From NCBI GenBank assembly GCA_036265815.1, contig DATAOI010000033.1, positions 1 to 64,000 on the forward strand: a stretch of 64,000 bases of DNA, written 5' to 3'. Under the pieces are notes generated by a model, which ran no database searches, was not told where the DNA came from, and was given only the letters and a program-made list of their open reading frames with translations. The position numbers were made by a program, and so were the translations under genes. Shown piece by piece: positions 11,515 through 40,740 of the stretch. The DNA comes from Gemmatimonadales bacterium. GTDB taxonomy: Bacteria; Gemmatimonadota; Gemmatimonadetes; Gemmatimonadales; GWC2-71-9. Positions within the stretch are counted from its first letter, which is position 1, and every line of letters begins with the position of its first letter.

Positions 11515-13263
11515 TCAACGCCCCGTCCACCCCGGCCCCCGCACCACCCTTCCCGGCTTCGCTCCGGTGTGCGCCCCGTTCCGCACCACCGCGACTCCGT
11601 TCACGAAGACCTCCCGGATACCGGTCGAGAGCTGGTGGGTGTGCTCGTAGGTGGCGTGGTCGATCACCGTCGCCGGGTCGAAGACCACGACATCGGCGTA
11701 CATCCCCTCGCGCAAGAGGCCGCGGTCCCGCAAGGAGAGACGCTCGGCCACCGCGCTGGTCATCTTGCGGACGGCGTCCTCCAGAGGGAGGATGTGCTGC
11801 TCGCGGACGAACCGTCCAAGAATGCGCGTGTAGGTCCCGTACGCCCTGGGATGCGTCTCGGTGCCGTGGGTGTCCGCCGGGTCGCTCGCCCCCGCGTCGG
11901 TGCCGATCTTGATCCAGGGCTGCCGGATCTGCAAGGCCAGGTTGTCCTCCGAGGCGATGAAGAACATGCCACCGAGCCGCCCCTGCTCTTCCAGGGTGAG
12001 GTCCATCAGCGCGTCGACCCATTCCTGCCGCCTGGCGGCCGCGATCTCCACCAGGCTCTTGTTCTCGAAGCGCTTGTTCGCGGCCAGCTCGAACCCGCCG
12101 GCCAGCACCCCTTCCGGCGTGGCGAGCTGACACAGGTTCTCCCAGGTGTCGGATCGCTCCGCCAGCACATCCGCCCGGATCCGCGCCCGCGTGGTCGAGT
12201 CCTTCAGGTTCTGCAGCAGCTTTCCGTCGGCCGATGCCCAGGGCGGCAGGCAGGCGGAAAGCGAGGTGCCGCCCGCCGTATAGGGGTACATATCGGCCGA
12301 CACGTCCTGCCCTGCCGCGCGGGCCGAGTCGATCTTGGCGATGGCCTGGGCCGCCTTGGGCCAGTTGCGCTTGCCTGCGGCCTTCAGGTGGTAGATCTCG
12401 ACCGGCACCCCGCCCTGCCGGCCGATGGCGAGCGCCTCGTCCATGCCCTCCAGGAAGTGGTCCGCCTCGGAGCGCATGTGGGTGATGTACACGCCGTGGT
12501 ACGGCGCCATCGCCCGGGCGAGCTCGACCAGCTCCGCCGTGGACGCATAGCTCCCCGGCGGATAGATCAGGGCGGTGCCCAGCCCGAAGGCGCCGTCCTC
12601 CATCGCCCCGCGCATCAGCGTCCGCATGCTGTCGAGCTCCGCGGGCGTGGGCGATCCCTCGGCCTGCCCTTTGACGTAGGTGCGTACCGTGGTGGCACCG
12701 AGGAAGGAGCCGGCATTGACCGAGATGCCATGCCGCTCCATCGCATCGAGCCACACGCCGAATCCGTGCGGCCCCTTGAACGGCGCCACCGCGGCCCTGA
12801 TCGTCGCGCTGTCGGTGTAAGGAAAGAAGAAGTCGGCGAATGCCTGGACGTTGTCGTTCCACGGCGCGGGAGTGTACGCCTCGCCCATGATCTCGGTGGT
12901 CACGCCCTGGGTCACCTTGCTCAGCGCGTGGCCGTCACCTACCAGCAGGTTGTCGTACGACCCGCTCTGAATGTCGATGAAGCCAGGCGCGACCACCATC
13001 CCTTTCGCGTCGATCCGGACCGGCGCGGTGGCGGCGGCCAGGCTGCCCGCCGGCCCCACATGGGCGATCCGGTCGCCTGCCACACCGATGTCTCCGGCGA
13101 ACCAGGCATTCCCCGTCCCGTCCACCACGTGACCACCGCCGATGATCACGTCGTAGTGCGACCGGACCGACGGCGCGGCCTGGACCGCTCCCGGACCCGG
13201 ATGACACGCGGTCACGCCCAAGGCCGCACCGGCCCACAGGTAGCCTCGCCCGCGGGCCCTCAT
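11515..13263 (-). CDS. N-acyl-D-amino-acid deacylase-like amidohydrolase (lipoprotein) 1
   Basis: 582 residues; ATG 13263 overlaps the upstream stop (ATGA). A lipobox VTAC (Cys20) predicts an outer-envelope lipoprotein. The D-aminoacylase fold is clear: DVIIGGGHVVDGTG, AFGLGTALIYPPGSYAS, the later ligands in YITHMRSEADH and EIYHLKAAG, IGTDAGASD and HPRAYGTY. D-aminoacylases release D-amino acids from N-acyl forms. The first metal motif is unusual: the family HxHxD site reads GFIDIQSGSYD (residues 94-104), and the GNCG cysteine position reads MGEA with Glu128. Metal use and substrate may therefore differ from the studied enzymes. Last gene of a three-gene minus-strand operon. Confidence 0.82.
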   Translation of the reverse strand: MRARGRGYLWAGAALGVTACHPGPGAVQAAPSVRSHYDVIIGGGHVVDGTGNAWFAGDIGVAGDRIAHVGPAGSLAAATAPVRIDAKGMVVAPGFIDIQSGSYDNLLVGDGHALSKVTQGVTTEIMGEAYTPAPWNDNVQAFADFFFPYTDSATIRAAVAPFKGPHGFGVWLDAMERHGISVNAGSFLGATTVRTYVKGQAEGSPTPAELDSMRTLMRGAMEDGAFGLGTALIYPPGSYASTAELVELARAMAPYHGVYITHMRSEADHFLEGMDEALAIGRQGGVPVEIYHLKAAGKRNWPKAAQAIAKIDSARAAGQDVSADMYPYTAGGTSLSACLPPWASADGKLLQNLKDSTTRARIRADVLAERSDTWENLCQLATPEGVLAGGFELAANKRFENKSLVEIAAARRQEWVDALMDLTLEEQGRLGGMFFIASEDNLALQIRQPWIKIGTDAGASDPADTHGTETHPRAYGTYTRILGRFVREQHILPLEDAVRKMTSAVAERLSLRDRGLLREGMYADVVVFDPATVIDHATYEHTHQLSTGIREVFVNGVAVVRNGAHTGAKPGRVVRGPGWTGR

Positions 13264-14843: not shown

Positions 14844-16655
14844 CTATCGGCCCGCCGCGCGCTTGGGAACCAGCGTGAGAGCCGGCTGCGGGTCTGGCTG
14901 CACCAGGGTGACTCGCTGCACGGTGCCTCCATCGATGGTGTACTCCAGGAAGAACCCGGCCTGCACCTCGTCGCCGGTCAGACGGAACCGGGTGGCGGTC
15001 ACCGGGACGAGGGTATAGACCGGCTGCCCCGGCACGGTGAGCTTGAGCTGACCGTCCACCAGCTGCACTTCGGCTGTGATCGGCAAGGACGGGGAGGCGA
15101 AGGAACCGGTGTAGCGCGGCAGCTCCGCCTGGGCGAGCCGGATGCCCGGCGTGGTGTCGGCCACCTCGGGCTTTCGCCGGAACTCGGCGAGATCGACGAC
15201 GTTCATCTTGTCGACCTTCCCGGTGGCGTCCAGGGTGAAGGTGACGTAACTCTTCCCCAGCCGGCGCTGCCGCCAGGTGGCCTGGAAGGTGTCGTACTGC
15301 CAGTGGGCGAGGTCGGCCACCAGGGTGCCGTACTGCAGGACGAGGCCCGGCTTCTCCCGCCGGACCACCGCGTCGCCGTTGAGGGTGTCGGTATACATGC
15401 CGGCGTACTTCTCGGGCGACAGCGAGGGGGAGGTGCCGGGAACGCGCTGGGCTTCGGTCTTCTTCCGCTCTGCCTTGGCCTGCGTTTGGGCTTCGCGTGA
15501 CGCCTTGAGGAAGACGGCGCTCCAGTCTTTGGCCGGCTGCTTGAGGTAGGCGTCGAACACCCGGTACATGAGGGCGTAGGTCAGGTCATTGCCGCCCAGG
15601 TTGCTGAGAACGACGATCCCGGTCTTCTCCTCCGGCAGCATTCCCACCAGGGCGCTCATGCCGTCGATGTTCCCGCCGTGCTGCACCACGCCCCGGCCCT
15701 TGTAATCGTGCAGGAACCAGCCCATCCCGTAGTTCAGCAGGTGGGCATCCTCTGCCGCCAGCTTCCAGAAGCCCTCGAGCGGCACCACGGTCTGGGGCGT
15801 GTGGGTTTCCTGGAACGCGGCCGCGCTGATCAGCGGCTTGCCACCCACCTTGCCGCCGGCGAGCTGGAAGCGGACCCATTGGGCCATGTCCAGCGCGTTG
15901 GAGTTGATCGACCCAGCAGGGCCAATGGCGTCGATGTTGAAGTAGGGGATCGCCCGCACCGTGTCGTCCACCTCCTCGTGCGGGGTCGCCACGTCGGGCA
16001 GGCGGTTCAGCGGGGTGACGCTGGTGTTGCTGGCGGTCATGCCCAGCGGGATGAAGATCCGCTGGCGCACCACGTCGTCCCAGGAGGCGCGGGTCACTCG
16101 CGCGGTGAGTTGCCCGGCCGCGAGGTACATCAGATTGGAGTAGCCGAAATGCGAGCGGAAACTATAAGCGGGCTTGACGTAGCGGACCTGGTGGAGGGCG
16201 CTGTCCCGGGTCATGTGCTCCGCGTAGAGAATCAGGTCCGCCGCGGTGAGCCCGCTCCGATGGGTCAGCAGGTCGCGCACCGTGAGCTCGCGGGTGGCGT
16301 AGGGGTCATAGAGCTGGAGCTCGGGGAGATAGTTCGTCGCCCGGTCGTCCCACTTGACCTTGCCCTGGTCCACCAGCATGGCCACCGCCATGGCGGTGAA
16401 CGCCTTGCTGGACGATCCGATGGCGAAGAGCGTGTGGGCGTCCACCGGGTCGGGCTTGCCGAGCGTGCGCACGCCGTATCCTTTGGCCAGCACCACCGAG
16501 TCGTTCCGCACGATGGCGACGGCCAGGCCCGGCACCTTCCAGGCGGCCATGCTCCGGGTGACGTAGGCGTCGAAGCCCTCCAGCGGCTTGCCCTGCGCCG
16601 AGACCGGAGCCCAGGGGCGGAGGAGTACCAGGAACAGCAGGAGAGCGCATCGCAT
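14844..16655 (-). CDS. Serine beta-lactamase-fold hydrolase 2
   Basis: The ATG at 16655 has GGGAG 6 nt upstream and opens a signal peptide ending SAQ (residue 21); the longer ORF adds an unlikely leader. 603 residues. Motifs: S81SSK84, Y172SN174 and H326GG328. After the catalytic domain there is a DUF3471-like domain (LAHWQYDTF) and an extra C-terminal beta domain of about 90 residues. It resembles hydrolase 1 and the one at 36692. First gene of the minus-strand operon, divergent from the racemase operon with a shared 98-bp promoter region that holds a TGTATACA palindrome. Confidence 0.85.
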   Translation of the reverse strand: MRCALLLFLVLLRPWAPVSAQGKPLEGFDAYVTRSMAAWKVPGLAVAIVRNDSVVLAKGYGVRTLGKPDPVDAHTLFAIGSSSKAFTAMAVAMLVDQGKVKWDDRATNYLPELQLYDPYATRELTVRDLLTHRSGLTAADLILYAEHMTRDSALHQVRYVKPAYSFRSHFGYSNLMYLAAGQLTARVTRASWDDVVRQRIFIPLGMTASNTSVTPLNRLPDVATPHEEVDDTVRAIPYFNIDAIGPAGSINSNALDMAQWVRFQLAGGKVGGKPLISAAAFQETHTPQTVVPLEGFWKLAAEDAHLLNYGMGWFLHDYKGRGVVQHGGNIDGMSALVGMLPEEKTGIVVLSNLGGNDLTYALMYRVFDAYLKQPAKDWSAVFLKASREAQTQAKAERKKTEAQRVPGTSPSLSPEKYAGMYTDTLNGDAVVRREKPGLVLQYGTLVADLAHWQYDTFQATWRQRRLGKSYVTFTLDATGKVDKMNVVDLAEFRRKPEVADTTPGIRLAQAELPRYTGSFASPSLPITAEVQLVDGQLKLTVPGQPVYTLVPVTATRFRLTGDEVQAGFFLEYTIDGGTVQRVTLVQPDPQPALTLVPKRAAGR

Positions 16656-16700
16656 GACCGGCTCCCATTCGAAGGACTTGCGCCCGCAGCCCCGGGCACC

Positions 16701-16726
16701 CATTGTTGGTGAGCAATGTATACAAT
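16701..16726. promoter_or_regulatory. TGTATACA operator in the divergent racemase/hydrolase promoter
   Basis: TGTATACA at 16717-16724 is a perfect 8-bp palindrome in the context AATGTATACAAT, close to the TTGTATACAA pattern typical of FadR/FCD-type GntR regulators. CATTG and CATTG's complement (16701-16705, 16714-16718) form an overlapping inverted repeat. It is 30 nt upstream of GTG 16754 and 61 nt from the divergent ATG 16655, so one bound dimer could control both operons. Confidence 0.55.
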
Positions 16727-16753
16727 CCTGAATCCAGTGAACAGAGCCGGCCG

Positions 16754-17887
16754 GTGACCGTCCGTCCCGAGCGGCTCACGCTCCGCGAGATCCAGCTCCC
16801 GCTCCAGGAGCCGTTCCGCATCTCCTCCGGGACCCAGACCCTCCGGCGCATCCTGCTGCTCGAGCTGGAGGACGCGTCCGGGGCGTCGGTCTGGAGCGAG
16901 TGCGTCGCCCCGGAGCAGCCCAACTACAGCCCCGAGACCATCGATACCGCCTGGCTCGCCATCCGGCACTGGGTGGCGCCCCGGGTGCTGGGGCACAGCT
17001 TCGACGAGCCGGACCAGGTCTTCCCCGCCCTTGAGCGTGACTTCCGCGGTCACCTGATGGCGAAGGCCGCCGTCGAGATGGCGGTCTGGGGACTGGACGC
17101 CGTGCAGCGCGGGCTCCCGCTCGCCGTCCGGCTGGGCGGCACCCGCCCGTGCATCGAGGTGGGCATCTCGCTGGGCATCCAGTCCAGCCCGGCCGTGCTG
17201 GTGGAGCGGGCCGGCCAGGCGCTGGCGGCGGGGTATCGCAAGGTCAAGATCAAGATCGAGCCCGGGGCCGACGTGGCCTACATCCTCGCGGCACGCCAGG
17301 CCCTGGGCGCCGATGCCCCGCTCATGGCGGACGCCAACAACGCGTATTCGCTGGCCGATACCGACCGCCTGGTCGAGCTCGACCAGTTCGGGCTCATGAT
17401 GATCGAGCAGCCCCTCGCCTGGGACGATCTCCACCGGCATGCCAAGCTCCAGCGGCAGCTCCGGACACCGCTCTGCCTGGACGAGTCCATCACCTCGCTC
17501 GACCGGGCCGAGGACATGCTCGCGCTGGGGAGCGGGCGCATCATCAACATCAAGCCGGGACGCGTGGGGGGCTTCGGTCCGTCGATCGCCATCCACGATT
17601 TCTGCGCCCGGGCGGGAATCCCGGTGTGGTGCGGCGGCATGCTGGAGAGCGGGGTGGGCCGGGCCTACAACGTGGCTCTGGCCTCGCTGCCCAATTTCGT
17701 CAAGCCGGGCGACATCTCTCCCAGCGCGAGGTACTGGACCGAGGACATCGTGAGCCCGGAATGGACCATGAACAGCGAGGGCCTCATGGCGGTGCCTCGC
17801 AACCAGCCGGGCATCGGGGTGACGGTCGACCGGGACCGGATCGCGGAGCTCACGGTGCGGGAAGAGCGGCTGAGGCGAGCCCAGTGA
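16754..17887 (+). CDS. N-acylamino-acid racemase / o-succinylbenzoate synthase family enzyme (NSAR)
   Basis: Enolase superfamily, MenC/NSAR group, 377 residues from GTG 16754; the longer TTG start (16703) would run through the operator. All catalytic residues are present: the KxK lysines (K165, K167), metal ligands D193 (MADAN), E218 (IEQP), D243 (CLDES) and second-face lysine K267 (NIKPGRVGG). Their spacing equals, with a constant offset of 4, that recalled for the Amycolatopsis enzyme (K163, D189, E214, D239, K263). NSAR enzymes racemise N-succinyl- or N-acyl-amino acids in the cytoplasm. Context with a COG3375 GNAT and an M20 deacylase, and no menaquinone genes, favours racemase over MenC function. 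First gene of a four-gene operon. Confidence 0.88.
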   Translation: MTVRPERLTLREIQLPLQEPFRISSGTQTLRRILLLELEDASGASVWSECVAPEQPNYSPETIDTAWLAIRHWVAPRVLGHSFDEPDQVFPALERDFRGHLMAKAAVEMAVWGLDAVQRGLPLAVRLGGTRPCIEVGISLGIQSSPAVLVERAGQALAAGYRKVKIKIEPGADVAYILAARQALGADAPLMADANNAYSLADTDRLVELDQFGLMMIEQPLAWDDLHRHAKLQRQLRTPLCLDESITSLDRAEDMLALGSGRIINIKPGRVGGFGPSIAIHDFCARAGIPVWCGGMLESGVGRAYNVALASLPNFVKPGDISPSARYWTEDIVSPEWTMNSEGLMAVPRNQPGIGVTVDRDRIAELTVREERLRRAQ

Positions 17888-19266
17888 GCAGCGCTCCCGC
17901 GCGTGCCGAGCTGGGCCGCGTCCTCGGCGTTCAGCAGCTGATCTACATCGTGATCGGCACGGTGATCGGTTCGGGGATTTTTATCGTCCCTGGCGCGGTC
18001 CTCCGCCAGTCCGGCGGGTCGGTGGGCCTGGCGCTGCTGGTCTGGCTGGTGGGAGGCGTGCTCTCGCTGCTCGGCGCACTCACCTACGCGGAGCTTGGAG
18101 GCATGCACCCGAAGGCGGGTGGCCTCTACATCTACATTCGTGACGCGTTCGGTCCGTTTCCCGCGTTCCTCTTCGGCTGGACCCTCTTCTTCATTATCGG
18201 CAGCGGCTCGGTGGCGACGCTCGCGGTGGCCTGGGTCGCCTACCTGGGGCAGCTCGTGCCGCTCGGCCCGGTGGCTGGCCGGGTCACCGCGATCGCCATC
18301 ATCGGGGTGATCGCGGTCGTCAATGTGCGAGGCACCCGGAGCGGCGCGCGGGTGCAGGACTTGACCACGTTCCTCAAAGTGGCCGGCATCGTGATCATGA
18401 GCTGCGCGTTCCTGCTGTGGGGCCGCGGGCTGCACGGTCTCCATGGCACCTTGTGGCCCGAAGCGGTCTCTCCACGCATTCTCTCGGGCTTCGGCCTCTC
18501 CATGATCGGCACGCTCTGGGCCTACGAAGGGTGGCAGTACGTCACCTATTCCGCCGGCGAGGCCAAAGACCCGCAGCGCACCTTCCACCGCGGGCTGGTG
18601 CTCGGCACCGCGATGCTGATCGCCATCTACCTGCTGGCCTCCGTCGGGTACCTTGCGGCCCTGGGGCCGGCGGGTGTGGCCGGAACCGATCGCGTCGCGG
18701 CCGATGCGGCCACGGTGCTCTTCGGGCCGGTGGCCGGCAAGCTCATCGCGCTCATGATCCTGGTCTCGATCTTCAGCGCCGCGAATGGGATCGTGCTCAC
18801 CGTTCCCCGGGCATTCTTCGCCATGGCGCGCGACGGGATCTTCTTTCACCGGCTGGCCGAGGTGCATCCCCGGTTCGGGACGCCGGCCTTTGCCATCCTC
18901 GCCTGCTCCGCCTGGGCGATGCTGCTCGCAGCCACCGGGACGTTCGAGCAACTCCTGACCTATGTGGTGTTCATCGGCTGGCTCTTCTACGGTCTCGGCG
19001 CGCTCAGCGTGTTCCGCTACCGCCGCCGCGAGCCGCTGGCCCCGCGGCCCTTCCGGGTGCCGGGGTATCCGGTCACGCCCGTTCTGTTCGTCGCCTCCGC
19101 GGCGGCCATCGTGATCAATACCATCGTGGCCCAGCCCGCGCGCGCGGCGGTGGGACTGGGCGTGGTGCTGCTCGGCTCACCTGCGTACTTCATCTGGCGC
19201 CGGCGCGGCGCCACTCCGCTCCCCGACGTCCTGGCCCCGAGCGGAGCCGGAGAATCCCGCGAATGA
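17884..19266 (+). CDS. APC-family amino acid permease
   Basis: 460 residues with 12 predicted TM helices. GTG 17884 overlaps the racemase stop (GTGA), with GAGGCG upstream. The N-terminal consensus VIGTVIGSGIFIVPG (helix 1) and the helix-6 region FGLSMIGTLWAYEGW are typical of the LAT/SteT group of amino acid exchangers. It should move amino acids across the inner membrane. Inside an operon for D-to-L conversion, the likely cargo is D-amino acids in, or exchange against an L-amino acid; this is inference. Ends in an ATGA overlap with the acyltransferase. Confidence 0.88.
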   Translation: MSSAPARAELGRVLGVQQLIYIVIGTVIGSGIFIVPGAVLRQSGGSVGLALLVWLVGGVLSLLGALTYAELGGMHPKAGGLYIYIRDAFGPFPAFLFGWTLFFIIGSGSVATLAVAWVAYLGQLVPLGPVAGRVTAIAIIGVIAVVNVRGTRSGARVQDLTTFLKVAGIVIMSCAFLLWGRGLHGLHGTLWPEAVSPRILSGFGLSMIGTLWAYEGWQYVTYSAGEAKDPQRTFHRGLVLGTAMLIAIYLLASVGYLAALGPAGVAGTDRVAADAATVLFGPVAGKLIALMILVSIFSAANGIVLTVPRAFFAMARDGIFFHRLAEVHPRFGTPAFAILACSAWAMLLAATGTFEQLLTYVVFIGWLFYGLGALSVFRYRRREPLAPRPFRVPGYPVTPVLFVASAAAIVINTIVAQPARAAVGLGVVLLGSPAYFIWRRRGATPLPDVLAPSGAGESRE

Positions 19267-22982: not shown

Positions 22983-22985
22983 CGC

Positions 22986-30120: not shown

Positions 30121-30201
30121 TGCGTCTCGGCAACATAGCAATTGCAGGGAACCCCACGCAAGGTCGCCGAGCCGCCCCCTTCCCGCCCCCGGAGGCAGAG
30201 C

Positions 30202-33141
30202 ATGCTGAACCTCGTCCTGGCCGCGCTCGTGCTGGGCCCGGCCGCCGTCGCCCCGGCCCAGGACTCGGTGGTGGCGGGCGTGGTCGTCGGTGCGAACGGC
30301 GCCACCCCGCTGGAAGGCGCCCGGGTCACCATCGACGGTACTCCGCTGGTGCAGACCACCGACGCCAAAGGGCAGTTCCGCTTCGCCGATGTCTCCGGCG
30401 GCGAGGTCACCCTTCGGGTGGTCCTCATCGGCTACCAGCCGGCGGCCGCGGTGGCGCGGGTGGGGCAGACCGACCTGCGGGTCCTGCTCCGCGAGAGCAC
30501 CGTCCAGCTCAACGAGATCGTGGTGACCGGCCAGCCGGGAGCCACGGAGCGGCGGGCGGTGGGCAACTCCATCGCCACCATCGACGCACCCGCGGCGCTG
30601 GAGCTCTCCGGCGCGGGGGACGCCGGCAAGCTCATCAACGGCCGGGCCGCCGGCGTCACCATCCTGCCGAACTCGGGCCGGGTGGGCGCCGGTCCCAGCG
30701 TGACCGTGCGCGGACTGGGGTCGCTGTCGCTCAACACCCAGCCGCTGATCTACATCGACGGGGTGCGGGTCAACAACGACGTCCTGAGCGGCCCCCAGTC
30801 GGCGGGCGGACTGGTGATCTCCCGGCTCAACGACATCGCGCCCGAGGACATCCAGAGCATCGAGATCATCAAGGGCCCGGCCGCCGGGACGATCTACGGC
30901 ACCGAGGCATCCAACGGGGTCATTCAGATCATCACCAAGAAGGGCCGCGCCGGGGGCAAGCCCCAGATCGGCCTCACCGTGCGGCAAGGCACGAACTGGT
31001 TCCAGAACCCCCAGGGCCGGATCCCCAGCAACTTCGGGCTCGACGCGAATGGTGCCGTCGTGTCCCAGAACCTGGTGCAGCAGGAGAGCGACCGGGGCAC
31101 CCCGATCTGGAAGAACGGCTACAACCAGGGCTACAACCTGTCGGCCACCGGCGGCTCCGACGCGGTGCAGTACTACGTCTCCGGCAGCTACGACGATGAC
31201 AAGGGCATCGATCCGACCAACCGGTCGCGCCGATTCGCCGGGCACGCCAACGTCTCGTTCCCGATTAACGATCGCCTCGACATCGGGACCAGCCTCAACT
31301 ATGTCAGGGGGAAGTTCCATCTGGGAACCGACTACCAGGACGGCCCGTTCCTCAACACGCTGTACGGTCTTCCCATCCTGGCAAGCACGCCCACCCGCGG
31401 ATTCCTGCAGGCCCCTCCCGAGGCCTACTACTCCGGCGTGTTCGACAACACGCAGGATCTCTCCCGCTTTACCGGCAGCGTGACGGTGAACCATCGTCCG
31501 GCAGGGTGGTTCAGCCACCGGCTGACCTTGGGAGTGGACCAGACCGGAGAGGACAACCAGGCCCTGACCACGTTCATGCCGCCGGCGGTGGCGCAATTCT
31601 TCGACCCGGTGAGCGCGCGCGGGCAGCTCCTGCTGAATCGCCAGGACGTCGCCTTCTACACCGCGGATTACAGCGCGACCGCCCATTTCAACCTGTCACC
31701 CAAGATCAGCTCGTCGAGCTCCATCGGCGGGCAGTACTACCAGCGGCGAGTCGACTCGGTGGGCGTGACCGGGCTCCAATTCCCAGCACCAGGGCTTCGC
31801 ACCGGGAGCTCCACCGCGACCACCACCGGCAGCCAGGACTTCGTCACCAACAAGACCATCGGCCTCTTCGGCCAACAGCAGTTCGGGCTCAACGATCGGA
31901 TCTTCCTCACCGGCGCCGTCCGAATCGACAACAACAGCGCCTTCGGCGACAACTTCGACCTGGCAACCTATCCCAAGGTCAGCGGGACCTGGGTGGTGAG
32001 CGAGGAGCCGTTCTGGCACCTCGGCTTCATCAACGCCCTCAAGCTGCGGGCGGCCTACGGTGCCTCGGGCCAGCAGCCCCAGAGCTTCGCGGCGCTCAGG
32101 ACGTACTCCCCGAGCACGGGCCCCAACGACGACCCGACCGTGACGCCGCAGTTCGTGGGCAATCCCGATCTCAAGCCGGAGCGGGGTCAGGAGGTCGAGC
32201 TGGGCTTCGAGGCGGGCCTGTTCAACCGGATCGGCATCGACTTCACCGTGTTCTCCAAGCAGACCAAGAATGCCATCCTGCTCCGGGGGACGCCCCCGTC
32301 CGGCGGATTCCCGGGGCAGCAGTTCGTCAACATCGGGGCGGTCAGCAACAAGGGGATCGAGCTGCAGGTGACCGCCCAACCGATCACCCGGTCCAACTTC
32401 AGCTGGGACGTGGCGGCGAGCGTCGCGACCGCGTCCAACTACATCAAGGATCTCGGCGGAATTCCCAGCATCAGCACCTTCCCCCCGCAGAGCGAGGTGG
32501 AGGGTTATCCCATCGCCTCCTACTTCATCAAGCGGGTCGTGAGCGCCGAGGCGGATGCCGACGGCACGCTCATCAGCGCCCTGTGTGACGGCGGCGCGGG
32601 GAAGGCACCGGTCGATTGCGCCGTCGCTCCACTGGTGTTTGCGGGTAGCCCCATTCCCAAAACCACCGGCGCCTTCACCACCACGCTCACCTTGTTCCGC
32701 AACTTGAGACTCTACGGCATGGTGGACTTCAAGCGGGGCCAGCGGCGGCTCAACACCGACCACCTGATTCGCTGTGATCTCATCGTCAACTGCGAGGAAG
32801 CCGTGAGTCCCGCGGGTCAGGATCCCAAGCTGCTCGCCGACATCGCGCTCGGGGCCGATCTTCAAACCGTCAACTCGTTCATCGAGGATGCCAGCTTCTT
32901 CAAGCTGCGGGAGATCTCGGCGAGCTATACGCTGCCCGATCGATGGGCCGGGGCGTTTGGCGCCAAGCGCGCGACCATTACGGTGAGCGGACGCAACCTC
33001 CACACCTGGACCAGCTATACCGGCCTGGACCCGGAGAGCCAGAGCTCCCAGGGAGGAGGGTCGGCCGCACTGGAGTTCCTCGACCAGGCAGTGACCCCAA
33101 CCTTGGCGCAGTTCGTGACCACCATCAGCCTCAACTTCTAG
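30202..33141 (+). CDS. susC: SusC/RagA-type TonB-linked outer membrane transporter
   Basis: 979 residues; ATG 30202 has GGAGG 6 nt upstream and opens a signal peptide ending APAQ. Residues 24-105 are a carboxypeptidase-regulatory-like beta domain (VVGANGATPLEGARVTIDG). Residues about 130-235 are the plug with GRAAGVTILPNSG, SVTVRGLGSLSLNTQPLIYIDGV and SIEIIKGPAAGTIYGTEA. The rest is a 22-strand barrel ending in FVTTISLNF with terminal Phe. It should import oligomers too large for porins, energised by TonB. Peptidase neighbours suggest peptides rather than glycans. Confidence 0.92.
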   Translation: MLNLVLAALVLGPAAVAPAQDSVVAGVVVGANGATPLEGARVTIDGTPLVQTTDAKGQFRFADVSGGEVTLRVVLIGYQPAAAVARVGQTDLRVLLRESTVQLNEIVVTGQPGATERRAVGNSIATIDAPAALELSGAGDAGKLINGRAAGVTILPNSGRVGAGPSVTVRGLGSLSLNTQPLIYIDGVRVNNDVLSGPQSAGGLVISRLNDIAPEDIQSIEIIKGPAAGTIYGTEASNGVIQIITKKGRAGGKPQIGLTVRQGTNWFQNPQGRIPSNFGLDANGAVVSQNLVQQESDRGTPIWKNGYNQGYNLSATGGSDAVQYYVSGSYDDDKGIDPTNRSRRFAGHANVSFPINDRLDIGTSLNYVRGKFHLGTDYQDGPFLNTLYGLPILASTPTRGFLQAPPEAYYSGVFDNTQDLSRFTGSVTVNHRPAGWFSHRLTLGVDQTGEDNQALTTFMPPAVAQFFDPVSARGQLLLNRQDVAFYTADYSATAHFNLSPKISSSSSIGGQYYQRRVDSVGVTGLQFPAPGLRTGSSTATTTGSQDFVTNKTIGLFGQQQFGLNDRIFLTGAVRIDNNSAFGDNFDLATYPKVSGTWVVSEEPFWHLGFINALKLRAAYGASGQQPQSFAALRTYSPSTGPNDDPTVTPQFVGNPDLKPERGQEVELGFEAGLFNRIGIDFTVFSKQTKNAILLRGTPPSGGFPGQQFVNIGAVSNKGIELQVTAQPITRSNFSWDVAASVATASNYIKDLGGIPSISTFPPQSEVEGYPIASYFIKRVVSAEADADGTLISALCDGGAGKAPVDCAVAPLVFAGSPIPKTTGAFTTTLTLFRNLRLYGMVDFKRGQRRLNTDHLIRCDLIVNCEEAVSPAGQDPKLLADIALGADLQTVNSFIEDASFFKLREISASYTLPDRWAGAFGAKRATITVSGRNLHTWTSYTGLDPESQSSQGGGSAALEFLDQAVTPTLAQFVTTISLNF

Positions 33142-33177: not shown

Positions 33178-34485
33178 ATGAGGCGCAGATCCTCGAACCT
33201 GGTAGAGTGGCGTTTGGTCGGGCTGGGCGCGGCGCTCGCCGGCGTCCTCTGCCTGACCCTGGCCGCTTGCAGCGACATCACCTCCCTCAAGCAGGACGCG
33301 CCCAGTCGGATCAAGGCGGGCGACCTGGAGAAGCCGGAGAACGCGGCCCTGCTGGTCGAAAGTGCGGTGGGAGACTTCCAGTGCGCCCTGGCCGACTACA
33401 TCGTCGCCGGGGGCCTGGTGGGCGACGAGCTGGCCAACGCCAACTTGGCGAACCGGGTCTGGGACTTCGACCGGCGCACCATTCTCCCGACCAACACCGT
33501 CTACTCCACCGAGACCTGCGACCAGGGTGAGGTCACGGTCTATACGACACTCTCCACCGCCCGCTTCGACGCCGACAACGTGCTCCGGCTGCTCGACGGC
33601 TGGACCGACGAGCAGGTACCGGGACGGGTCGGGCTGATCGCCACCGCGGCGGCCTATGCCGGGTACAGCCTGGTGCTGCTAGGCGAAGGGATGTGCTCCG
33701 CGGCGCTCGATGTCGGCCCCGCGCTCACCCCGACGCAAATCCTGACCGAGGCGGAGGCCCGCTTCACCCGCGCCATCGATGCCGCCACGGCGGCCGGCGA
33801 CGACCAGACCCTCAACCTCGCACTCGTCGGCCGGGCCCGAGCTCGGCTGGACCTCGGCAACACGGCGGAGGCCGGCGCCGACGCCGCGCTGGTGCCGGCG
33901 GATTTCCTGGTCGAGGCGACCTATTCAGCCGCCAAGACCCAACGGGAGAACCTGGTCTTCACCGCACTGTACCGGGACCTCCTATACACGGTGGACGTTC
34001 CGTTTCGCGATGTCACCTTCGGCGGTACGCCCGACCCGCGGGTATCGGTCGCCGATGCCGGCAACACCGGCGCCGACCCGACCGTCGAGATCTTCCAGCC
34101 GCTCAAGTACCCCTCGATCGACTCGCCGATCCCGGTGGCCCGGTGGGAAGAGGCCCAGCTCATCCTGGCTGAGGCCGACGTAGCGGCCGGCGACGCAGCA
34201 GGGGCCGTCGGCATCATCAACACGCTGCACACCAACGCAGGCCTTCCTGCCTATGGCGGCGGCACGCCGGAAGAGGTGATGAGCCAGATCATCGAGGAGC
34301 GGAGCCGGGAGCTGTTCCTGGAAGGCCAGCGGCTGGGTGACATCATCCGGTACGGTCTGCCGCTCTTTCCCGCGCCGGGCACGCCGTTCCCGGTCGGTGG
34401 AACGGCCACCGGCGTCTACGGCACCCAGGTCTGCTTCCCCCTGCCCTCGGTGGAGCGGAACAACAACCCCAATATCCCCGATTGA
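33178..34485 (+). CDS. susD: SusD/RagB-type substrate-binding lipoprotein
   Basis: 435 residues, 36 nt after susC. Lipobox LAAC gives Cys31. The helical TPR-like scaffold is visible, with VARWEEAQLILAEADVAAGD and the conserved C-terminal IIEERSRELFLEGQRLGDIIRYG. SusD-like lipoproteins sit on the outer face and act as a lid on the SusC barrel, delivering the substrate. Forms the uptake pair with the preceding gene. Confidence 0.9.
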   Translation: MRRRSSNLVEWRLVGLGAALAGVLCLTLAACSDITSLKQDAPSRIKAGDLEKPENAALLVESAVGDFQCALADYIVAGGLVGDELANANLANRVWDFDRRTILPTNTVYSTETCDQGEVTVYTTLSTARFDADNVLRLLDGWTDEQVPGRVGLIATAAAYAGYSLVLLGEGMCSAALDVGPALTPTQILTEAEARFTRAIDAATAAGDDQTLNLALVGRARARLDLGNTAEAGADAALVPADFLVEATYSAAKTQRENLVFTALYRDLLYTVDVPFRDVTFGGTPDPRVSVADAGNTGADPTVEIFQPLKYPSIDSPIPVARWEEAQLILAEADVAAGDAAGAVGIINTLHTNAGLPAYGGGTPEEVMSQIIEERSRELFLEGQRLGDIIRYGLPLFPAPGTPFPVGGTATGVYGTQVCFPLPSVERNNNPNIPD

Positions 34486-34511
34486 AGCCCACCCCCTCCG
34501 GGGCTCATGAC

Positions 34512-36680
34512 ATGCGCGGGGCGGCCGCCCTCGGTCTGCTCGTCACTTTCCTGGCCGTCCCGGAGATGGCGCCGCTCGCTGCGCAGCAGCGTTCGGCGCC
34601 ATTCTCGCTACAGCAGCTCCTCGGGTACCCGTACCCGAGCGAGCTCACCGCCTCGGCCACCGGCTCCCGGCTCGCCTGGGTGCTCAACGAGCGAGGCGTT
34701 CGGAACGTCTGGGTTGCGGAGGGCCCCGACTTCGTGGCGCGTGAGCTCACCCGGAATCGTTCGGACGATGGGCAGGAGCTCACCCAGCTCACGATCTCCC
34801 GCGACGGCAAGACGGTGGTGTATGTACGGGGCGGCGATCACGATGCAAACTGGGCCGACGAGGTTCCTCCCGACCCGGCGTCGGATCCGGCCCGACCGCA
34901 GGTCGAGATCTGGGCCGCGCCCTTCGCGGGCGGTGTTCCCAGACTGCTCGCGGCCGGCGATGACCCCGCCGTCTCCCCGCGTGGCGACCGCGTCGCCTTC
35001 CTCCGCGAGGGGGCCATCTGGAGCGTCTCGCTCGACGACACGATGCCGGCCAAGCCACTGGTGTTCGCGAGGGGTACGAACGGCTCGCTGGAGTGGTCGC
35101 CGGACGGGAGCCGGCTGGCATTCGTCACCGACCGCGACGACCACAGCTTCGTCGCCGTTTTCGCCGGCGACTCCACCCCGATTCGCTATCTGGCGCCCTC
35201 CACCTCTCGCGATCTCAGCCCCCGGTGGTCCCCCGACGGGACGCGTATCGCGTTCGTCCGCCTCCCCGGCGAGGGTGGCGCTCCGCAGGTGCCCCTGTTC
35301 GGGGACCACCCGGTGCCCTGGGCGATCTGGACCGCGGATGCCGCCACCGGCCAAGCGCGCCGGGTCTGGCGAAGCCCCCGCACACCGCTCGGCTCCTACC
35401 CGATCACGGACGGGGAAGCCAACCTGCACTGGGTCGCGGGCGAGCGGCTGGTGTTTCTGGCCGATCTGGACGGGTGGCCCCATCTCTACTCGGTCTCCAC
35501 TCGGGGGGGCGCGCCGCTCCTGCTGACGCCGGGACGCTTCATGGTCGAGTTCGTGCAGCCGAGCCCGGACGGCGCGTCACTCGTCTACGCCGCGAACACG
35601 GGCCCCGATCGAGCCGACGGCGACCGCCGCCACATCTTCCGGGTCGCGGTCGACCGGGGGGAGCCCGTGGCGCTCACGTCGGGGGACGGCATCGAGTGGG
35701 CGCCAGCCGTGACGGGCGACGGTGGGGTGGTGTTCATCGGCGCTGGCCCGCGCACGCCACCTCTCCCCACGGTGATCGCCGCCGGCGCCACGCCGCGGGC
35801 GATCGGCGGGGCGCGGATCCCGGCCGACTTCCCTGCCGCATCGTTCGTCCTCCCCCGGGCGGTCCAGTTCCGGGCAGCCGACGGGGTCGAGGTGCACGGC
35901 CAGCTCTTCCAGCCGCGTGCCGACTCCAGCGCCGTCCGGGCTCGGCATCCCGCACTGGTATACGTGCACGGCGGGCCCCCGAGACAGATGCTGTTGGGCT
36001 GGCACTACATGGATTACTACGCGAACGTGTACGCGCTGAACCAGTACTTCGCCAGCCGCGGCTACGTAGTCCTGGCACTCAACTACCGCCTGGGAATCGG
36101 CTACGGACACGACTTCACCCACCCCGACCATACGGGCCCGGACGGCGCGGCCGAATACCAGGACGTGAAGGCGGCCGCCGAGTACCTGGGCCGACTCCGG
36201 CAGGTGGACCCCCGCCGCATCGGAATCTGGGGCGGCTCATACGGCGGCTATCTCGGGGCGCTCGCCCTGGCCCGCAACTCCGACCTCTTTGCCGCCGCGG
36301 TCGACCTCCACGGGGTCCACGACTGGACCACCGACCTGGCCTCCGAGCTGGCGACCGCGAGCGCACGGTACGAGCAGGGGGACGTCGCCCGCGCCAAGGT
36401 GAGGGCCTGGCGGTCGTCGCCGGTCTCGTCGATCGGCACGTGGAAATCGCCCGTGCTCCTCATCCATGGGGACGACGACCGCAACGTCCGCTTCCAGCAG
36501 ACCGTCGATCTGGCACGCCGGCTCGACGCCGCGGGCGTTCGCTACGACGAGCTCGTGCTTCCCGACGAGATTCATGGGTTCCTGCGGCACGCGACCTGGC
36601 TCACGGTTGATTCGGCCGCGGCGGCGTATTTCGACCGGTTCTTGCTACGTCCGACCGAGCGAGCATCGGTTCACCCTTGA
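34512..36680 (+). CDS. S9 family prolyl-oligopeptidase-type peptidase
   Basis: 722 residues from ATG 34512, with a signal peptide ending PLAAQ; a TTG overlapping the susD stop (34482) is a possible alternative. Residues 30-440 form a TolB/WD-like beta-propeller (repeated SPDGxRLAFV, SPRWSPDGTRIAFVR). Residues 450-722 are the alpha/beta-hydrolase domain with S576 in WGGSYGGYLG, D656 in HGDDDRNV and H688 in DEIHGF. Exported S9 enzymes cleave short peptides or acylated peptides. It follows susD closely, so it probably trims imported peptides in the periplasm. Confidence 0.9.
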   Translation: MRGAAALGLLVTFLAVPEMAPLAAQQRSAPFSLQQLLGYPYPSELTASATGSRLAWVLNERGVRNVWVAEGPDFVARELTRNRSDDGQELTQLTISRDGKTVVYVRGGDHDANWADEVPPDPASDPARPQVEIWAAPFAGGVPRLLAAGDDPAVSPRGDRVAFLREGAIWSVSLDDTMPAKPLVFARGTNGSLEWSPDGSRLAFVTDRDDHSFVAVFAGDSTPIRYLAPSTSRDLSPRWSPDGTRIAFVRLPGEGGAPQVPLFGDHPVPWAIWTADAATGQARRVWRSPRTPLGSYPITDGEANLHWVAGERLVFLADLDGWPHLYSVSTRGGAPLLLTPGRFMVEFVQPSPDGASLVYAANTGPDRADGDRRHIFRVAVDRGEPVALTSGDGIEWAPAVTGDGGVVFIGAGPRTPPLPTVIAAGATPRAIGGARIPADFPAASFVLPRAVQFRAADGVEVHGQLFQPRADSSAVRARHPALVYVHGGPPRQMLLGWHYMDYYANVYALNQYFASRGYVVLALNYRLGIGYGHDFTHPDHTGPDGAAEYQDVKAAAEYLGRLRQVDPRRIGIWGGSYGGYLGALALARNSDLFAAAVDLHGVHDWTTDLASELATASARYEQGDVARAKVRAWRSSPVSSIGTWKSPVLLIHGDDDRNVRFQQTVDLARRLDAAGVRYDELVLPDEIHGFLRHATWLTVDSAAAAYFDRFLLRPTERASVHP

Positions 36681-36691
36681 CCTTCCGGTCC

Positions 36692-38260
36692 ATGCCTTCT
36701 CTGCCTCTGCAGTTGCGTCTCCCTTGGTTGATGACGGCCGTATTGCTCGCCGCCCCGGTCGCACCCCCGGCGGCCGCACAGAGCGCCAACGCACCACTTG
36801 CCGGCTTCGAGGAGTATGTGGCCAGGGCGGTCAAGGACTGGGGCGTTCCCGGCCTGGCCGTGGCTGTCGTGAAGGATGACTCGACCGTGTTCGCGCGCGG
36901 GTACGGCGTACGCACCATCGGCACGCACGACACCGTGGATACCCACACGTTGTTCGCCCTCGGCTCCACCACTAAGGCGTTCACGACCATGGCGCTGGCG
37001 ATGATGGTCGACGCCGGGAAGGTTCGGTGGGACGACGCGGTCACGGCCTACCTCCCCGGCTTCGTGCTCCGCGATCCCTACGTCAGCCGGGAGGTCACGC
37101 TGCGTGACCTGCTGACCCACGAGCTTGGCTTCGGCGACCCGGATTACATGTGGTACGGCAGCGATCAGCCGCTGGCCGAGATGATCCGCCGGCTCCGCTA
37201 CCTGCCCCCGGAGACAAGCTTCCGGTCGCATTTCGCGTATAACAACATCGGCTACGCCGTCGCGGGCCAGATCGCGGGGACCGTGAATCACAGCTCGTGG
37301 GACGACCTCGTGCGCACCCGCATCCTGGGGCCTCTCGGGATGTCCGAAACCGTGATGGAGGGGCCAGACCTTCGGGGGAAGGCCAACGTCACGCGCCCGC
37401 ACCAGGCCGTCGACGACACGCTTCGGGCGCTTCCCGCTTCCTCGCAGCAGCTGGTTGACGCCATCGCCCCCGCAGGATCGATGTACTCAAACGTGCTCGA
37501 CATGGCGAAGTGGCTGCGGTTCCTGCTCGACAGCGGACGGGTCGAGAAAAAGCGGCTGGTGAGCGACACGGCGTTCGCCGAGCTCATGACCCCTCAGGTC
37601 CTCGTCGGACGCCAGGAGTTCTATCCCACGGCCAAGCTCACGAACCCGAATTTCATCGCCTACGGTCTGGCCTGGTTCCTGGAGGACTATCGGGGCGAGA
37701 AAGTGGTCTTTCACACCGGCAGCATCGACGGACTGGTCGCGATCGTCGGCCTCATCCCGGCGCGGCGACTCGGGGTCGTGGTGCTCGCCAACCGCGACCA
37801 CGCGGAGGTGCGCCATGCGCTCATGTACCGGGTCTTCGACTCCTACCTGGGCGCTCCGCACCGGGATTGGAGCGCGGACATGCGGGCCATGTATCAGAAG
37901 ATCCAGGACTCGGTCAAAGTGGCGAAGAAGGAGGCCGACGCCAAGCGGGTCAAAGATACGAAACCCTCGCTGGCCCTCGCCGGGTACGCGGGGACCTACG
38001 CCGACAGCCTGTATGGGTCGGTGACCGTCCGGCTGGAGCGCGGCGGACTGGTGCTGGCGCCGAGCCAGTTCCTCACCGCCGATCTCGAGCACTGGAACTA
38101 CGACACGTTCCGCGCCCGGTACCGGAACCGGTGGCTCGGGACCTCACTGGTGACCTTCCGCCTCGCGCCGGACGGCAAGGTCTCCGCGATCGACTTGGAC
38201 CACGGCCAGATCTTGGCGCGGGTAGCGCCCCCGAAGGCGGCGTCGTCCGGGGCCCACTAA
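36692..38260 (+). CDS. Serine beta-lactamase-fold hydrolase 6
   Basis: 522 residues from ATG 36692; signal peptide ends near AAAQ (residue 30). A TTG at 36677 overlapping the S9 stop is an alternative start. Motifs: S92TTK95, a Y-N-N in HFAYNNIGY and H-T-G in VFHTGSIDG. A DUF3471-type C-terminal domain ends with LEHWNYDTF. It is closest in plan to hydrolases 1 and 2 on the other side of the island. It is the last gene of the susCD-S9 run and overlaps the convergent VanX fusion by 4 nt. Confidence 0.85.
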   Translation: MPSLPLQLRLPWLMTAVLLAAPVAPPAAAQSANAPLAGFEEYVARAVKDWGVPGLAVAVVKDDSTVFARGYGVRTIGTHDTVDTHTLFALGSTTKAFTTMALAMMVDAGKVRWDDAVTAYLPGFVLRDPYVSREVTLRDLLTHELGFGDPDYMWYGSDQPLAEMIRRLRYLPPETSFRSHFAYNNIGYAVAGQIAGTVNHSSWDDLVRTRILGPLGMSETVMEGPDLRGKANVTRPHQAVDDTLRALPASSQQLVDAIAPAGSMYSNVLDMAKWLRFLLDSGRVEKKRLVSDTAFAELMTPQVLVGRQEFYPTAKLTNPNFIAYGLAWFLEDYRGEKVVFHTGSIDGLVAIVGLIPARRLGVVVLANRDHAEVRHALMYRVFDSYLGAPHRDWSADMRAMYQKIQDSVKVAKKEADAKRVKDTKPSLALAGYAGTYADSLYGSVTVRLERGGLVLAPSQFLTADLEHWNYDTFRARYRNRWLGTSLVTFRLAPDGKVSAIDLDHGQILARVAPPKAASSGAH

Positions 38261-40740
38261 GGAGCTTGACCCGCCCGGTTCTGAGCGGCAACCAGCTGCT
38301 CGAACGTCAGGTTTTGAATCCGGTATCGGCGCCAGTCGCCGTAATCAAAGTGCCACCACTCGGCCTCGTACACGGTGAAACCCTCGGCTTCCATGGCGTG
38401 ACGCAACAGATCGCGGTGCCATCGCTGCCGCGACGTGCCACCGGGGTAGAGCGGGTAGGATCGGTCGCTCAGCTCGTCGTACCCGCCCGTCATCCGGATG
38501 GGTCGCCCGGACTTCAGGTCGTAGAGCGTCAGATCCACGGCGCAGCCGCGATTGTGCCGCGATCCCTGCGCTGGGTCCGCTACGAAGAGGTGCTTGTCGG
38601 CGGGTGTGCCGTCCCAGAACATTTTGGTCACATACCAGGGTCGGTAGGCATCGTGTACCAGCAGCCCGTACCCGAGCGGCTCGAGCGCCCGGGCCACGCG
38701 CGCGAGGGCTTCCGCCGCCGGCCGCTGCATGAACGCGTGCGCCGAGCTGTAGAGGGCCGTGCCCAGGAAGTTGTTTGCGGTCGCGTAGCGGATGTCGTAG
38801 GCGATGCCAGGATGGAGGCTCCGGAGCTCGACCAGGTCAGACTGGCGGAACTCGCCGACCTCCTCGGGTGGGTGCGCGGAGAGTGCCGCTTGGCGCAGCG
38901 TGTCGATCGGCTGCACCGGCGTGATGCGGAAGCTCACGCGATTGTCGTCTCCCGGGAGCGGCCTGCGCTTGAACGGGACGGTCGCCACCACCGCGAGCGT
39001 GGCGCGTCCGTCGGCCCCGCGGTGGAACACGATCTCCTGGCCGTCGTACAACCCCCAGGCCGGGAAGCGATAGACGTCCCGTGAGACACGCTGCAGCGGA
39101 TACTCGAAGAACCACTCGATCAGTGCGTTCAGCCGCCCGTCCTTCTCCCGGATATAGAGGATGTCGTGAGGCCAGCCGTATTCGCCGATCAGTCCGGCGT
39201 CGGCCCCGGCCGCCGGCGCCGGCTTTGGTTCGGCCATGGCGATCCGGTCGGAGCCGGGCGTCGGGAGTCGGATGAGCGTGTCGAGGCCGATGACGAGCCG
39301 CCCACCCCCGGGCGCCAGGACCTTCCTGCTTGGGCCCGGCAGATCGTCTCCGAACAGCTCGAGGGGGCGTCCGTCGGCGGTGTCGCTGCGGGCCGGTCCC
39401 GCGAGGCGCAGCTCGGCCCGGCTGCCGCCGCGTGTCGGGGTCAGGTACAGCTTTCCTTCGTACTCCTGCAGGTCCACACCGCTGTCGCCCTTCAGGTACC
39501 GACCCATCAGCCCGAGGGCCTGCGCGCGGCTGAGCGGAGAGGTCGTCGGGATGACGGGGAGCGGCTTCCCAGCCCGCGTCGCCAGCATCATCCGCAGGGC
39601 CGCCTCGGCGATATCGTCGGTCACCGTGTTCATGGCATCGAGTGTCGCGACGACGACGACCCCAAGCGAGTCGTCCGGGAGCGCGCGCAGCGTGGTGGCG
39701 AAGCCGTAGATGGCGCCGTCGTGACCAACGGACCGGTGGCCATCCAGCCGGTCTACCCAGAAGCCGATGCCGATGCCGCTAGAGTCGTGGGATGAGGCGT
39801 ATTGCGGCGTCCACATCGAGTCGAGCGTGGCGGTAGCCAGCACCCGGCCGCCATCGGGGGTTCGGCCGCCAGTGAAGAGCACGGACATGAAACGGCCAAG
39901 ATCGAGCGCGGTGGTATAGAGACTGCCGGCCGGCCCCTCTCCAAGCTGGAACGTCGGCGCGTCGAACCGCCGGCCGTCGAGGGTCCACATGTACCCCTTC
40001 GCGAGGTGCGGCTGCAGGTCCGGGAGCGGCTCGAAGGCACTCCCGTTCAGGCCCATCGGCTCGAGCACTGCGCGTTTGAGATAGCTTGCGAACGGCTCCT
40101 TCTGGGTGCGCTCGAGCACGTACCCGAGGGCGGCGATGCCGGCGTTGGAGTACTTGAGGTGGGTGCCGGGCCGATAGACGAGCCTCGTTCGGTAGAGACT
40201 CTCGACCGTGGCGGCGAGCGTCGGCTGCGTGTCGTCGAAGTAGTGGCCGACGGGTGGCTCCCGGGTCAGCCCGGCGCGGTGCGCGGTGAGCTCACGAATG
40301 GTGATCCGGCCGCCGAAGGGGTTCGATGGGCGGAAGTCGGGAAGAGCGCGGGCGATTGGTGCGTCCAGGTCCAGTTCCCCCCGTTCGACCAGCTGCATGA
40401 TGCCGATATCGGTGAACAGCTTCGAAACGGAGCCGACCCGGTACACGGTCGCCGCCGTGGCGGGGACACCGGCCGAGGAATCGGCCCAACCGAAGCCCCG
40501 GGCCCACACGATACGGGTTCCATCCACCAAGGCCAGCGAGATGGCCGGGATATTCCGCTCCGCGCGCGCCTGGTCGATGACCGGCGCGAGGGCCCGCGCA
40601 ACCTCACCGTATCGGCCCTCGGGGTCGACCGCGTCCTGCGTCGCCCCGGTGCGCGGGAGCAGGGCGAGGCAGGCGAGCATCAGGAGGCGGACTGGCCCCC
40701 TGAGGCCCCGATTGGCGTTGTGCGGCGCGGAATCTGGCAT
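38257..40740 (-). CDS. Serine beta-lactamase-fold hydrolase fused to VanX-type D-Ala-D-Ala dipeptidase
   Basis: 827 residues from ATG 40740, with a signal-like N-terminus (MLACLALLPRTGATQ). Residues 45-400 are a class C-like serine hydrolase: S104VSK107, Y197SN199 and H-D-G in VGHDGAIYG. Residues 400-630 are a beta-rich linker. Residues 634-827 are an M15D dipeptidase with R700 in AYRP, zinc motif S727RHNRGCAVD736 and E794WWH797. VanX splits D-Ala-D-Ala and is normally a stand-alone protein of about 200 residues. The fusion would let one exported protein make and then split D,D-dipeptides. Paired TTGTATC boxes precede it. Confidence 0.88.
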   Translation of the reverse strand: MPDSAPHNANRGLRGPVRLLMLACLALLPRTGATQDAVDPEGRYGEVARALAPVIDQARAERNIPAISLALVDGTRIVWARGFGWADSSAGVPATAATVYRVGSVSKLFTDIGIMQLVERGELDLDAPIARALPDFRPSNPFGGRITIRELTAHRAGLTREPPVGHYFDDTQPTLAATVESLYRTRLVYRPGTHLKYSNAGIAALGYVLERTQKEPFASYLKRAVLEPMGLNGSAFEPLPDLQPHLAKGYMWTLDGRRFDAPTFQLGEGPAGSLYTTALDLGRFMSVLFTGGRTPDGGRVLATATLDSMWTPQYASSHDSSGIGIGFWVDRLDGHRSVGHDGAIYGFATTLRALPDDSLGVVVVATLDAMNTVTDDIAEAALRMMLATRAGKPLPVIPTTSPLSRAQALGLMGRYLKGDSGVDLQEYEGKLYLTPTRGGSRAELRLAGPARSDTADGRPLELFGDDLPGPSRKVLAPGGGRLVIGLDTLIRLPTPGSDRIAMAEPKPAPAAGADAGLIGEYGWPHDILYIREKDGRLNALIEWFFEYPLQRVSRDVYRFPAWGLYDGQEIVFHRGADGRATLAVVATVPFKRRPLPGDDNRVSFRITPVQPIDTLRQAALSAHPPEEVGEFRQSDLVELRSLHPGIAYDIRYATANNFLGTALYSSAHAFMQRPAAEALARVARALEPLGYGLLVHDAYRPWYVTKMFWDGTPADKHLFVADPAQGSRHNRGCAVDLTLYDLKSGRPIRMTGGYDELSDRSYPLYPGGTSRQRWHRDLLRHAMEAEGFTVYEAEWWHFDYGDWRRYRIQNLTFEQLVAAQNRAGQAP

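Follow-up and report, generated by a model that had tools for sequence, protein, structure and literature searches.

A 64,000-nucleotide stretch of a Gemmatimonadales genome (the window; GC content 68.7%) carries, between 11.5 and 40.7 kb, a 29-kb island in which an N-succinylamino acid racemase (NSAR) operon is found together with secreted hydrolases, a SusC/SusD pair and a GntR/FCD regulator. The question that this locus raises is whether these genes belong to one functional set, and whether the set deals with D-amino-acid-containing peptides, as the first-pass annotation had proposed. The host is a soil-type Gemmatimonadota bacterium, whose genome assembly (4.59 Mb in 119 contigs) is 99% complete. 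The gene classes of the island were established from ORFs and Pfam/NCBIfam searches, and the island was compared with 60 genomes of relatives, those with names being Gemmatimonadales/Gemmatimonadota MAGs.

Gene content of the island

All the gene classes named by the first-pass annotation were found, at the coordinates reported below. Since the genes on the left flank (ChrB, aldolase/SDR and a WD-repeat protein) and on the right flank (a PAS/GAF histidine kinase and a LuxR-type regulator) are foreign to the island, the borders that it had drawn are good. The small ORF at 25079-25498 (minus strand), between two membrane S12 genes, was present too, but its assignment as SpoIIAA-like is putative, Pfam giving no match at E<=0.001. 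Several annotated ORF starts are too long, for example those of NSAR and of the S12-VanX fusion.

The NSAR gene (16703-17887, plus strand), coding for an N-succinylamino acid racemase/OSBS-family enolase (TIGR01928, E 7e-92), is followed on the same strand by genes for an APC amino-acid permease (17884-19266; PF13520, E 8.5e-56), a GNAT-fold N-acyltransferase that is a candidate D-amino acid N-succinyltransferase (19263-20132) and an M20 amidohydrolase that is a candidate N-succinyl-L-amino acid desuccinylase (20129-21322; PF01546; TIGR01891, E 3e-97). The racemase gene and the succinyltransferase-type and desuccinylase-type genes share one operon. The annotated start of NSAR is a TTG, and the alignment of orthologs places the true start probably about 15-20 codons after 16703. 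The protein has the features of the MR/MLE fold, namely the KxK motif, the D-E-D metal ligands and a second catalytic lysine, and the residues K182/K184, D210, E235, D260 and K284 are invariant in 20 orthologs; its best solved relatives are N-acyl/N-succinylamino acid racemases (E 5e-117). The GNAT was assigned from its model, from the Pfam matches of its family and from its adjacency to NSAR. The copy in the window matches Pfam weakly; of the 30 members of its family, 17 have an Acetyltransf_7 match, and the AlphaFold model (pLDDT 90) matches GNAT structures, according to which this is a real GNAT fold.

Seven S12 serine hydrolases are encoded in the island, and the SxxK, YxN and HxG motifs are intact in all of them. 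Two secreted proteins with a DUF3471 domain are adjacent on the minus strand (g02, 13260-14843, PF00144 E 4e-66; g03, 14844-16703, E 1e-66), and two with C-terminal membrane helices lie on the same strand (g09, 22986-25082, E 7e-57; g10, 25483-27477, E 8e-58). Two more are on the plus strand, one at 27525-29243 (E 4e-63) and one, with DUF3471, at 36677-38260 (g16, E 1e-66). As many as 7 of the about 17 S12 loci of the 4.59-Mb genome fall within these 29 kb, a clustering that exceeds chance, though duplication accounts for part of it, as indicated by the identity between g09 and g10 (63%) and among g02, g03 and g16 (42-49%). The best solved relative of two of the S12 proteins, g02 being one, is Pab87 (2QMI), a D-specific enzyme that breaks down peptides containing D-amino acids; its gene is near a D-aminoacylase gene and dipeptide transporter genes (PMC2651629). 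Beta-lactamases and esterases/carboxylesterases are also found among the solved relatives.

The seventh S12 protein (38257-40740, minus strand; PF00144), whose ORF extends to 40920 with a likely start near 40740, is fused to a C-terminal Peptidase_M15/VanX domain of the M15D D-Ala-D-Ala dipeptidase type (PF01427, E 3e-36). This domain contains the motifs SRHNRGCAVD (SxHxxGxAxD), EAEWWH (ExWWH-type) and YRP (with the R71-type arginine), judging from which its zinc and catalytic residues are intact. Outside the island, another S12 gene of the same genome (G000:C73:3014-3955) is broken over three frames, giving three adjacent PF00144 pieces, and is probably a pseudogene or an assembly error.

The importer genes are both on the plus strand and code for a SusC-type TonB-dependent outer-membrane transporter (30142-33141; TIGR04056, 438.7 bits vs. 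a cut-off of 368) and a SusD-type surface lipoprotein (33178-34485; PF07980, lipobox LAAC). They are followed by a gene for a secreted S9 peptidase (34482-36680, plus strand; PF00326, E 6e-40). At four loci of other genomes (L120-L122 and L124; e.g. L120:2940-6971) an S9 gene takes the place of M20 in an NSAR-GNAT-S9 arrangement; these S9 proteins are 49-50% identical to that of the island and come from a separate Gemmatimonadales/Gemmatimonadota clade.

The two amidohydrolase lipoproteins, DAA1 (11515-13263, minus strand; PF07969, Amidohydro_3; lipobox) and DAA2 (21315-22982, minus strand; Amidohydro_3; lipobox), belong, as far as structural comparison and modelling indicate, to the D-aminoacylase structural family. 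The best PDB match of DAA1 is D-aminoacylase 1rjp (E 2.6e-79). The Foldseek top matches of the DAA2 AlphaFold model (pLDDT 87) are all members of this family, the first being N-acyl-D-Glu deacylase 3gip (E 1.8e-43). The predicted metal/catalytic site is E128/H262/H292/D456 in DAA1 and E122/H226/H256/D425 in DAA2, and H226, H256 and D425 of the latter, invariant in 27 proteins, are equivalent to H220, H250 and D366 of D-aminoacylase. The fold and these three residues are therefore common to DAA proteins and to the known enzymes (1rjp, 1m7j and 3gip), whereas the HxH ligands of the alpha metal (H67, H69) and the bridging C96 of the latter are replaced in the 1rjp alignment and in island-type homologs, with a Glu instead. 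This Glu adjoins the C96 position and was found without exception in the 29 island-type homologs surveyed; the first His of HxH is lost in all of them and the second is retained in a minority (e.g. IQSHS). For this reason we class the two proteins as D-aminoacylase-like only: they have the fold and the three equivalent residues of D-aminoacylase and lack three of its metal ligands. In the DAA2 model the Glu, His, His and Asp follow successive barrel strands, an arrangement which we take to be that of the E. coli NagA-type mononuclear sites. The title of PDB entry 1v4y describes the activation of a D-aminoacylase by one metal, which makes it plausible by analogy that the DAA proteins are one-metal enzymes. 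The branch in which an invariant Glu replaces Cys and HxH may represent a new subtype of metal site within the amidohydrolase superfamily.

Recurrence in relatives

Orthologs of NSAR (58-76% identity) were found in 22 of the 60 relatives, with GNAT adjacent in 21 and M20 near in 19 of these 22; GNAT-NSAR-M20 is thus a conserved core. When all the neighbours of 55 non-redundant NSAR loci were clustered with no preselection, the most frequent family after the core was the D-aminoacylase-like one, present at 13 loci and absent at 42; then came two unrelated families, at 9 and at 8 loci. SusC was counted at 8 loci, S12, GntR and an ABC-ATPase-like family at 7 each, SusD at 6, APC at 5 and S9 at 4, SusCD being limited to few loci. 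In comparison, 20 control loci of 20 kb each from same-group genomes contained 0-1 of each island family, neither set of loci being corrected for phylogeny. DAA1 orthologs lie within 20 kb of NSAR in 9 of 25 cases (Poisson P 9e-15). At the level of whole genomes, 23 with NSAR were compared to 38 without it, phylogeny being ignored, and DAA1 (15/23 vs. 5/38, P 4e-5), GntR (12/23 vs. 3/38, P 2e-4) and SusC (12/23 vs. 4/38, P 5e-4) co-occurred with NSAR significantly; the co-occurrence of S12-VanX was weak and borderline (7/23 vs. 4/38, P 0.055).

The full island is present in only 2 of the 10 genomes of the genus, and elsewhere it is modular. Given this patchy presence in the genus, an origin by horizontal transfer may be considered. 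In the same-genus genome G001 nearly the whole island is in place except SusCD, whose ortholog (77%/74% identity) is on a separate contig (C319). Near-complete clusters occur in other genera or families (G051, L113, L125 and L109); that of G051 fits GntR, GNAT, NSAR, M20, APC, DAA1, SusC, SusD, DAA2 and S12 into 16 kb. G055 and G059 have the set at two separate loci, one with NSAR, DAA and GntR and the other with APC-SusC-SusD-S12-VanX. A further locus (L201, G057:C14, 8798-16472) has S12-VanX, S12, GntR, APC and a second GNAT, 39% identical to that of the island, together without NSAR. The classes grouped by the first-pass annotation do recur around NSAR in other families of the order, far above control loci; the lack of joint conservation that it had named as refuting its reading was not observed. 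What recurs is their combination, while the arrangement as a 29-kb unit is confined to two genomes.

A gene run that forms a Bacillota counterpart of the island was found in Fictibacillus fluitans (L174, 680-20444). It contains NSAR, GNAT, M20, S12, an M55 D-aminopeptidase and M19, besides M81, S12-SLH, two more S12 and an RpiR regulator, and its importer is a family-5 binding protein/oligopeptide ABC transporter (Dpp/Opp). L115 and G028 likewise have an M55 gene near NSAR, and in G032 M55 adjoins S12-VanX. The presence of M55 D-aminopeptidase, M19 and Dpp ABC genes beside NSAR in Bacillota and Gemmatimonadota supports a chemistry of D-residues, and the D-peptide reading is supported by the finding that the two phyla couple one cytoplasmic route to importers of different kinds.

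A palindrome at the island promoters

Co-location alone is insufficient to tie the parts of the island into one regulon. The gene for the GntR/FCD regulator (29209-29901, minus strand; PF00392, PF07729), a candidate repressor, has orthologs that adjoin NSAR, DAA1, SusC and S12-VanX in other genomes. Upstream of GntR/FCD homologs we observed TTGTATACAA- or TGGTATACCA-like palindromes, which we take to resemble the operators of this regulator class. When the regions upstream of the GntR homologs were scanned for exact 5-mer palindromes, none stood out clearly from shuffled sequence; the GTATAC core was spotted by eye in several sequences and then tested on the whole genome, on control loci and against 64 composition-matched palindromes.

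In the whole 4.59-Mb genome TGTATACA has 3 copies, two of them at island promoters: one in the divergent NSAR/S12 promoter (16717-16724), just within the annotated TTG start of NSAR, and one in the divergent SusC/GntR promoter (30112-30119). A weaker operator-like site, TAGTATACAT, is at the start of an S12 gene in the divergent S12/S12 region (27468-27477). The third copy of TGTATACA (G000:C21:55486, L217) precedes a pair made up of an HTH regulator gene and a cytochrome-c-peroxidase-like gene (family assigned by eye), overlaps a promoter-like TTGACA region and probably serves another regulator.

Across the fetched loci, 18 of 23 copies of TGTATACA fall in promoter windows of island families (18 in 74 kb, about 3.6% of the sequence, vs. 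5 in 2.0 Mb elsewhere), in data that partly overlap with those used for motif discovery. No copy was found in 398 kb of control sequence, and the next best of the 64 composition-matched palindromes had 2 copies. More independent are the genome-wide counts and the split between genomes with and without the regulator. Of the 12 genomes that have the regulator, 8 carry KGTATACM at the NSAR operon and 4 do not, and none of the 11 genomes without the regulator carries it there (P 0.0013); the palindrome at the NSAR promoter thus depends on the presence of the regulator gene. TTGTATACA is absent genome-wide from G028, G037 and G053, which have no regulator, while G055 has exactly two copies, at its NSAR/DAA1 and SusCD/S12-VanX modules. 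The sole copy of G026 precedes SusC and that of G043 precedes GNAT-NSAR. About 17 of 23 inspected TTGTATACA sites, with those of L078, L082 and L096, border an island-family gene, and the relocated SusC of G001 (L077) retains the palindrome. In another genome, an operator-like site (L250, G010:C150:79469) precedes a distant enolase-superfamily gene, 27% identical to NSAR, which is possibly a dipeptide epimerase of the same regulon.

Through the common palindrome, the genes for the outer-membrane, periplasmic and cytoplasmic parts can be placed in one predicted regulon. Its predicted role as operator for the island promoters is newly identified here and is the most useful handle on the locus.

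Proposed use of D-amino-acid peptides and alternative explanations

The island is probably one regulon for using D-amino-acid-containing peptides and N-acyl compounds, and its most likely substrates would be stem fragments of peptidoglycan or other D-peptides present in the debris of soil. SusCD would carry oligopeptides across the outer membrane, and the secreted S12, S12-VanX and S9 proteins and the D-aminoacylase-like lipoproteins would cut them, either in the periplasm or on the cell surface. Uptake of free amino acids would then fall to the APC permease, which would bring them into the cytoplasm, where GNAT would N-succinylate the D-amino acids, NSAR would racemise the N-succinyl form and M20 would release the L-amino acid. 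The GntR/FCD protein would bind the TTGTATACAA/TGGTATACCA sites at the island promoters and control the set. Of the functional reading in the first-pass annotation, one functional set with D-residue chemistry is supported by the recurrence, by the palindrome and by the M55/M19/Dpp neighbours; we infer from sequence the D-specificity of the S12, S9 and DAA proteins and the import of peptides by SusCD. A broader proposal, which we put forward tentatively and at slightly under an even chance, is that of a class of D-peptide utilisation loci, PUL-like and modular in Gemmatimonadota, with SusCD import, D-specific hydrolases (including the mononuclear Glu-His-His D-aminoacylase branch and the S12-VanX fusion enzyme), the N-succinylation route and a GntR/FCD operator.

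The island might instead serve general peptide and ester scavenging, in which the S12, S9 and amidohydrolase paralogs would be broad enzymes for ordinary L-peptides or for esters, with the NSAR operon as an unrelated passenger. Such a role would suit the clustered S12 paralogs, suggestive of local duplication, the carboxylesterases among their solved relatives and the recurrence of the island SusCD away from NSAR in other genomes. It is unlikely, considering that the NSAR and SusC promoters have a rare palindrome in common, that the same gene combination occurs in other families, that NSAR loci of other lineages contain the M55 D-aminopeptidase and M19 and that the VanX domain is catalytically intact by its motifs. 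Peptidoglycan self-recycling or beta-lactam-related wall remodelling, in which S12 and VanX would shorten stem peptides of the cell itself and D-Ala would be recycled through the D-to-L route, has no need of outer-membrane import by SusCD. It also agrees poorly with the inducible-type GntR control and with the absence of NSAR from 8 of the 10 genus genomes, which is expected of an accessory catabolic trait. We regard it as improbable, even if the S12/VanX/D-aminoacylase-like chemistry suits stem peptides and a role at the cell wall is conceivable for the membrane-anchored pair g09/g10.

A second MenC-like gene, about 40-42% identical to the island NSAR, is present elsewhere in the genome (C21). 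Genes of this type occur in most same-genus genomes and are commoner among the relatives than the island NSAR, which is found in only one other genome of the genus, and the C21 gene is probably the housekeeping copy. No men genes were found beside it, its neighbours being an M19 dipeptidase, GH38 and Amidohydro_2, so that this argument is one of distribution only. NSAR is marked by an Arg at the third position behind the catalytic Lys; the C21 paralog has this residue as well, so that it does not discriminate between the two. The operon context (GNAT and M20) and the second MenC-like gene favour an NSAR over an OSBS role. That the island enolase is the menaquinone MenC (OSBS), in an operon unrelated to D-amino acids, is very hard to sustain, since the C21-type gene is in most genomes of the genus and the island copy in just two, its orthologs lying nearly always with GNAT and usually with M20, even though TIGR01928 is an NCBIfam equivalog named o-succinylbenzoate synthase, the NSAR/OSBS family is promiscuous and the C21 copy is likewise without flanking men genes.

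If the island is read as a D-peptide utilisation regulon, its parts have known counterparts. An NSAR-dependent irreversible conversion of D- to L-amino acids in Geobacillus kaustophilus was reportedly described by Sakai et al. in 2006. The pathway of this organism, like its homologs in Bacillota, has the same GNAT, NSAR and M20 families, mutually adjacent, but is without the SusCD, the D-aminoacylase-like lipoproteins, the S12 and S12-VanX proteins and the GntR/FCD operator of the island. The Bacillus dpp/ykf operon codes for the D-aminopeptidase DppA, a dipeptide ABC transporter and an epimerase. It resembles the island in D-peptide uptake, a D-specific peptidase and an enolase-superfamily epimerase, and differs from it in that import occurs by an ABC system over one membrane and a dipeptide epimerase is used in place of the N-succinyl route; the Fictibacillus run combines the DppA-type M55 and the Dpp/Opp ABC system with NSAR. 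To our knowledge, no SusCD for D-peptides is known. The Pab87 locus of Pyrococcus abyssi has been proposed to process environmental D-peptides (PMC2651629). Like the island, it has an S12 D-peptidase-type gene with a D-aminoacylase and a transporter nearby, but it is archaeal, with an ABC transporter, an aminotransferase rather than the NSAR route, and neither SusCD nor VanX. RagAB, a SusC/SusD-type pair of Porphyromonas, is implicated in peptide/protein uptake (PMC11817032). The island SusC belongs, as RagAB does, to the TIGR04056 SusC/RagA family, with a peptide as its predicted ligand. Literature searches (NSAR, Gemmatimonadota, SusCD with D-amino acids), which covered few subscription journals, returned no earlier description, in agreement with the first-pass statement that no described system is known to join SusCD to this route. 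The novelty lies in a new combination of known parts, a variant of D-peptide utilisation systems.

The D-amino acids of bacterial cell walls make up a large and slowly degraded share of the organic matter in soils and sediments, and their use by abundant uncultured phyla is largely uncharted. If the proposed reading is true, the operator would mark the regulon in any genome, two enzyme types would be of interest, namely the S12-VanX fusions and the HxH-less relatives of D-aminoacylase, and Gemmatimonadota would gain an inducible route that leads from the outer membrane to L-amino acids.
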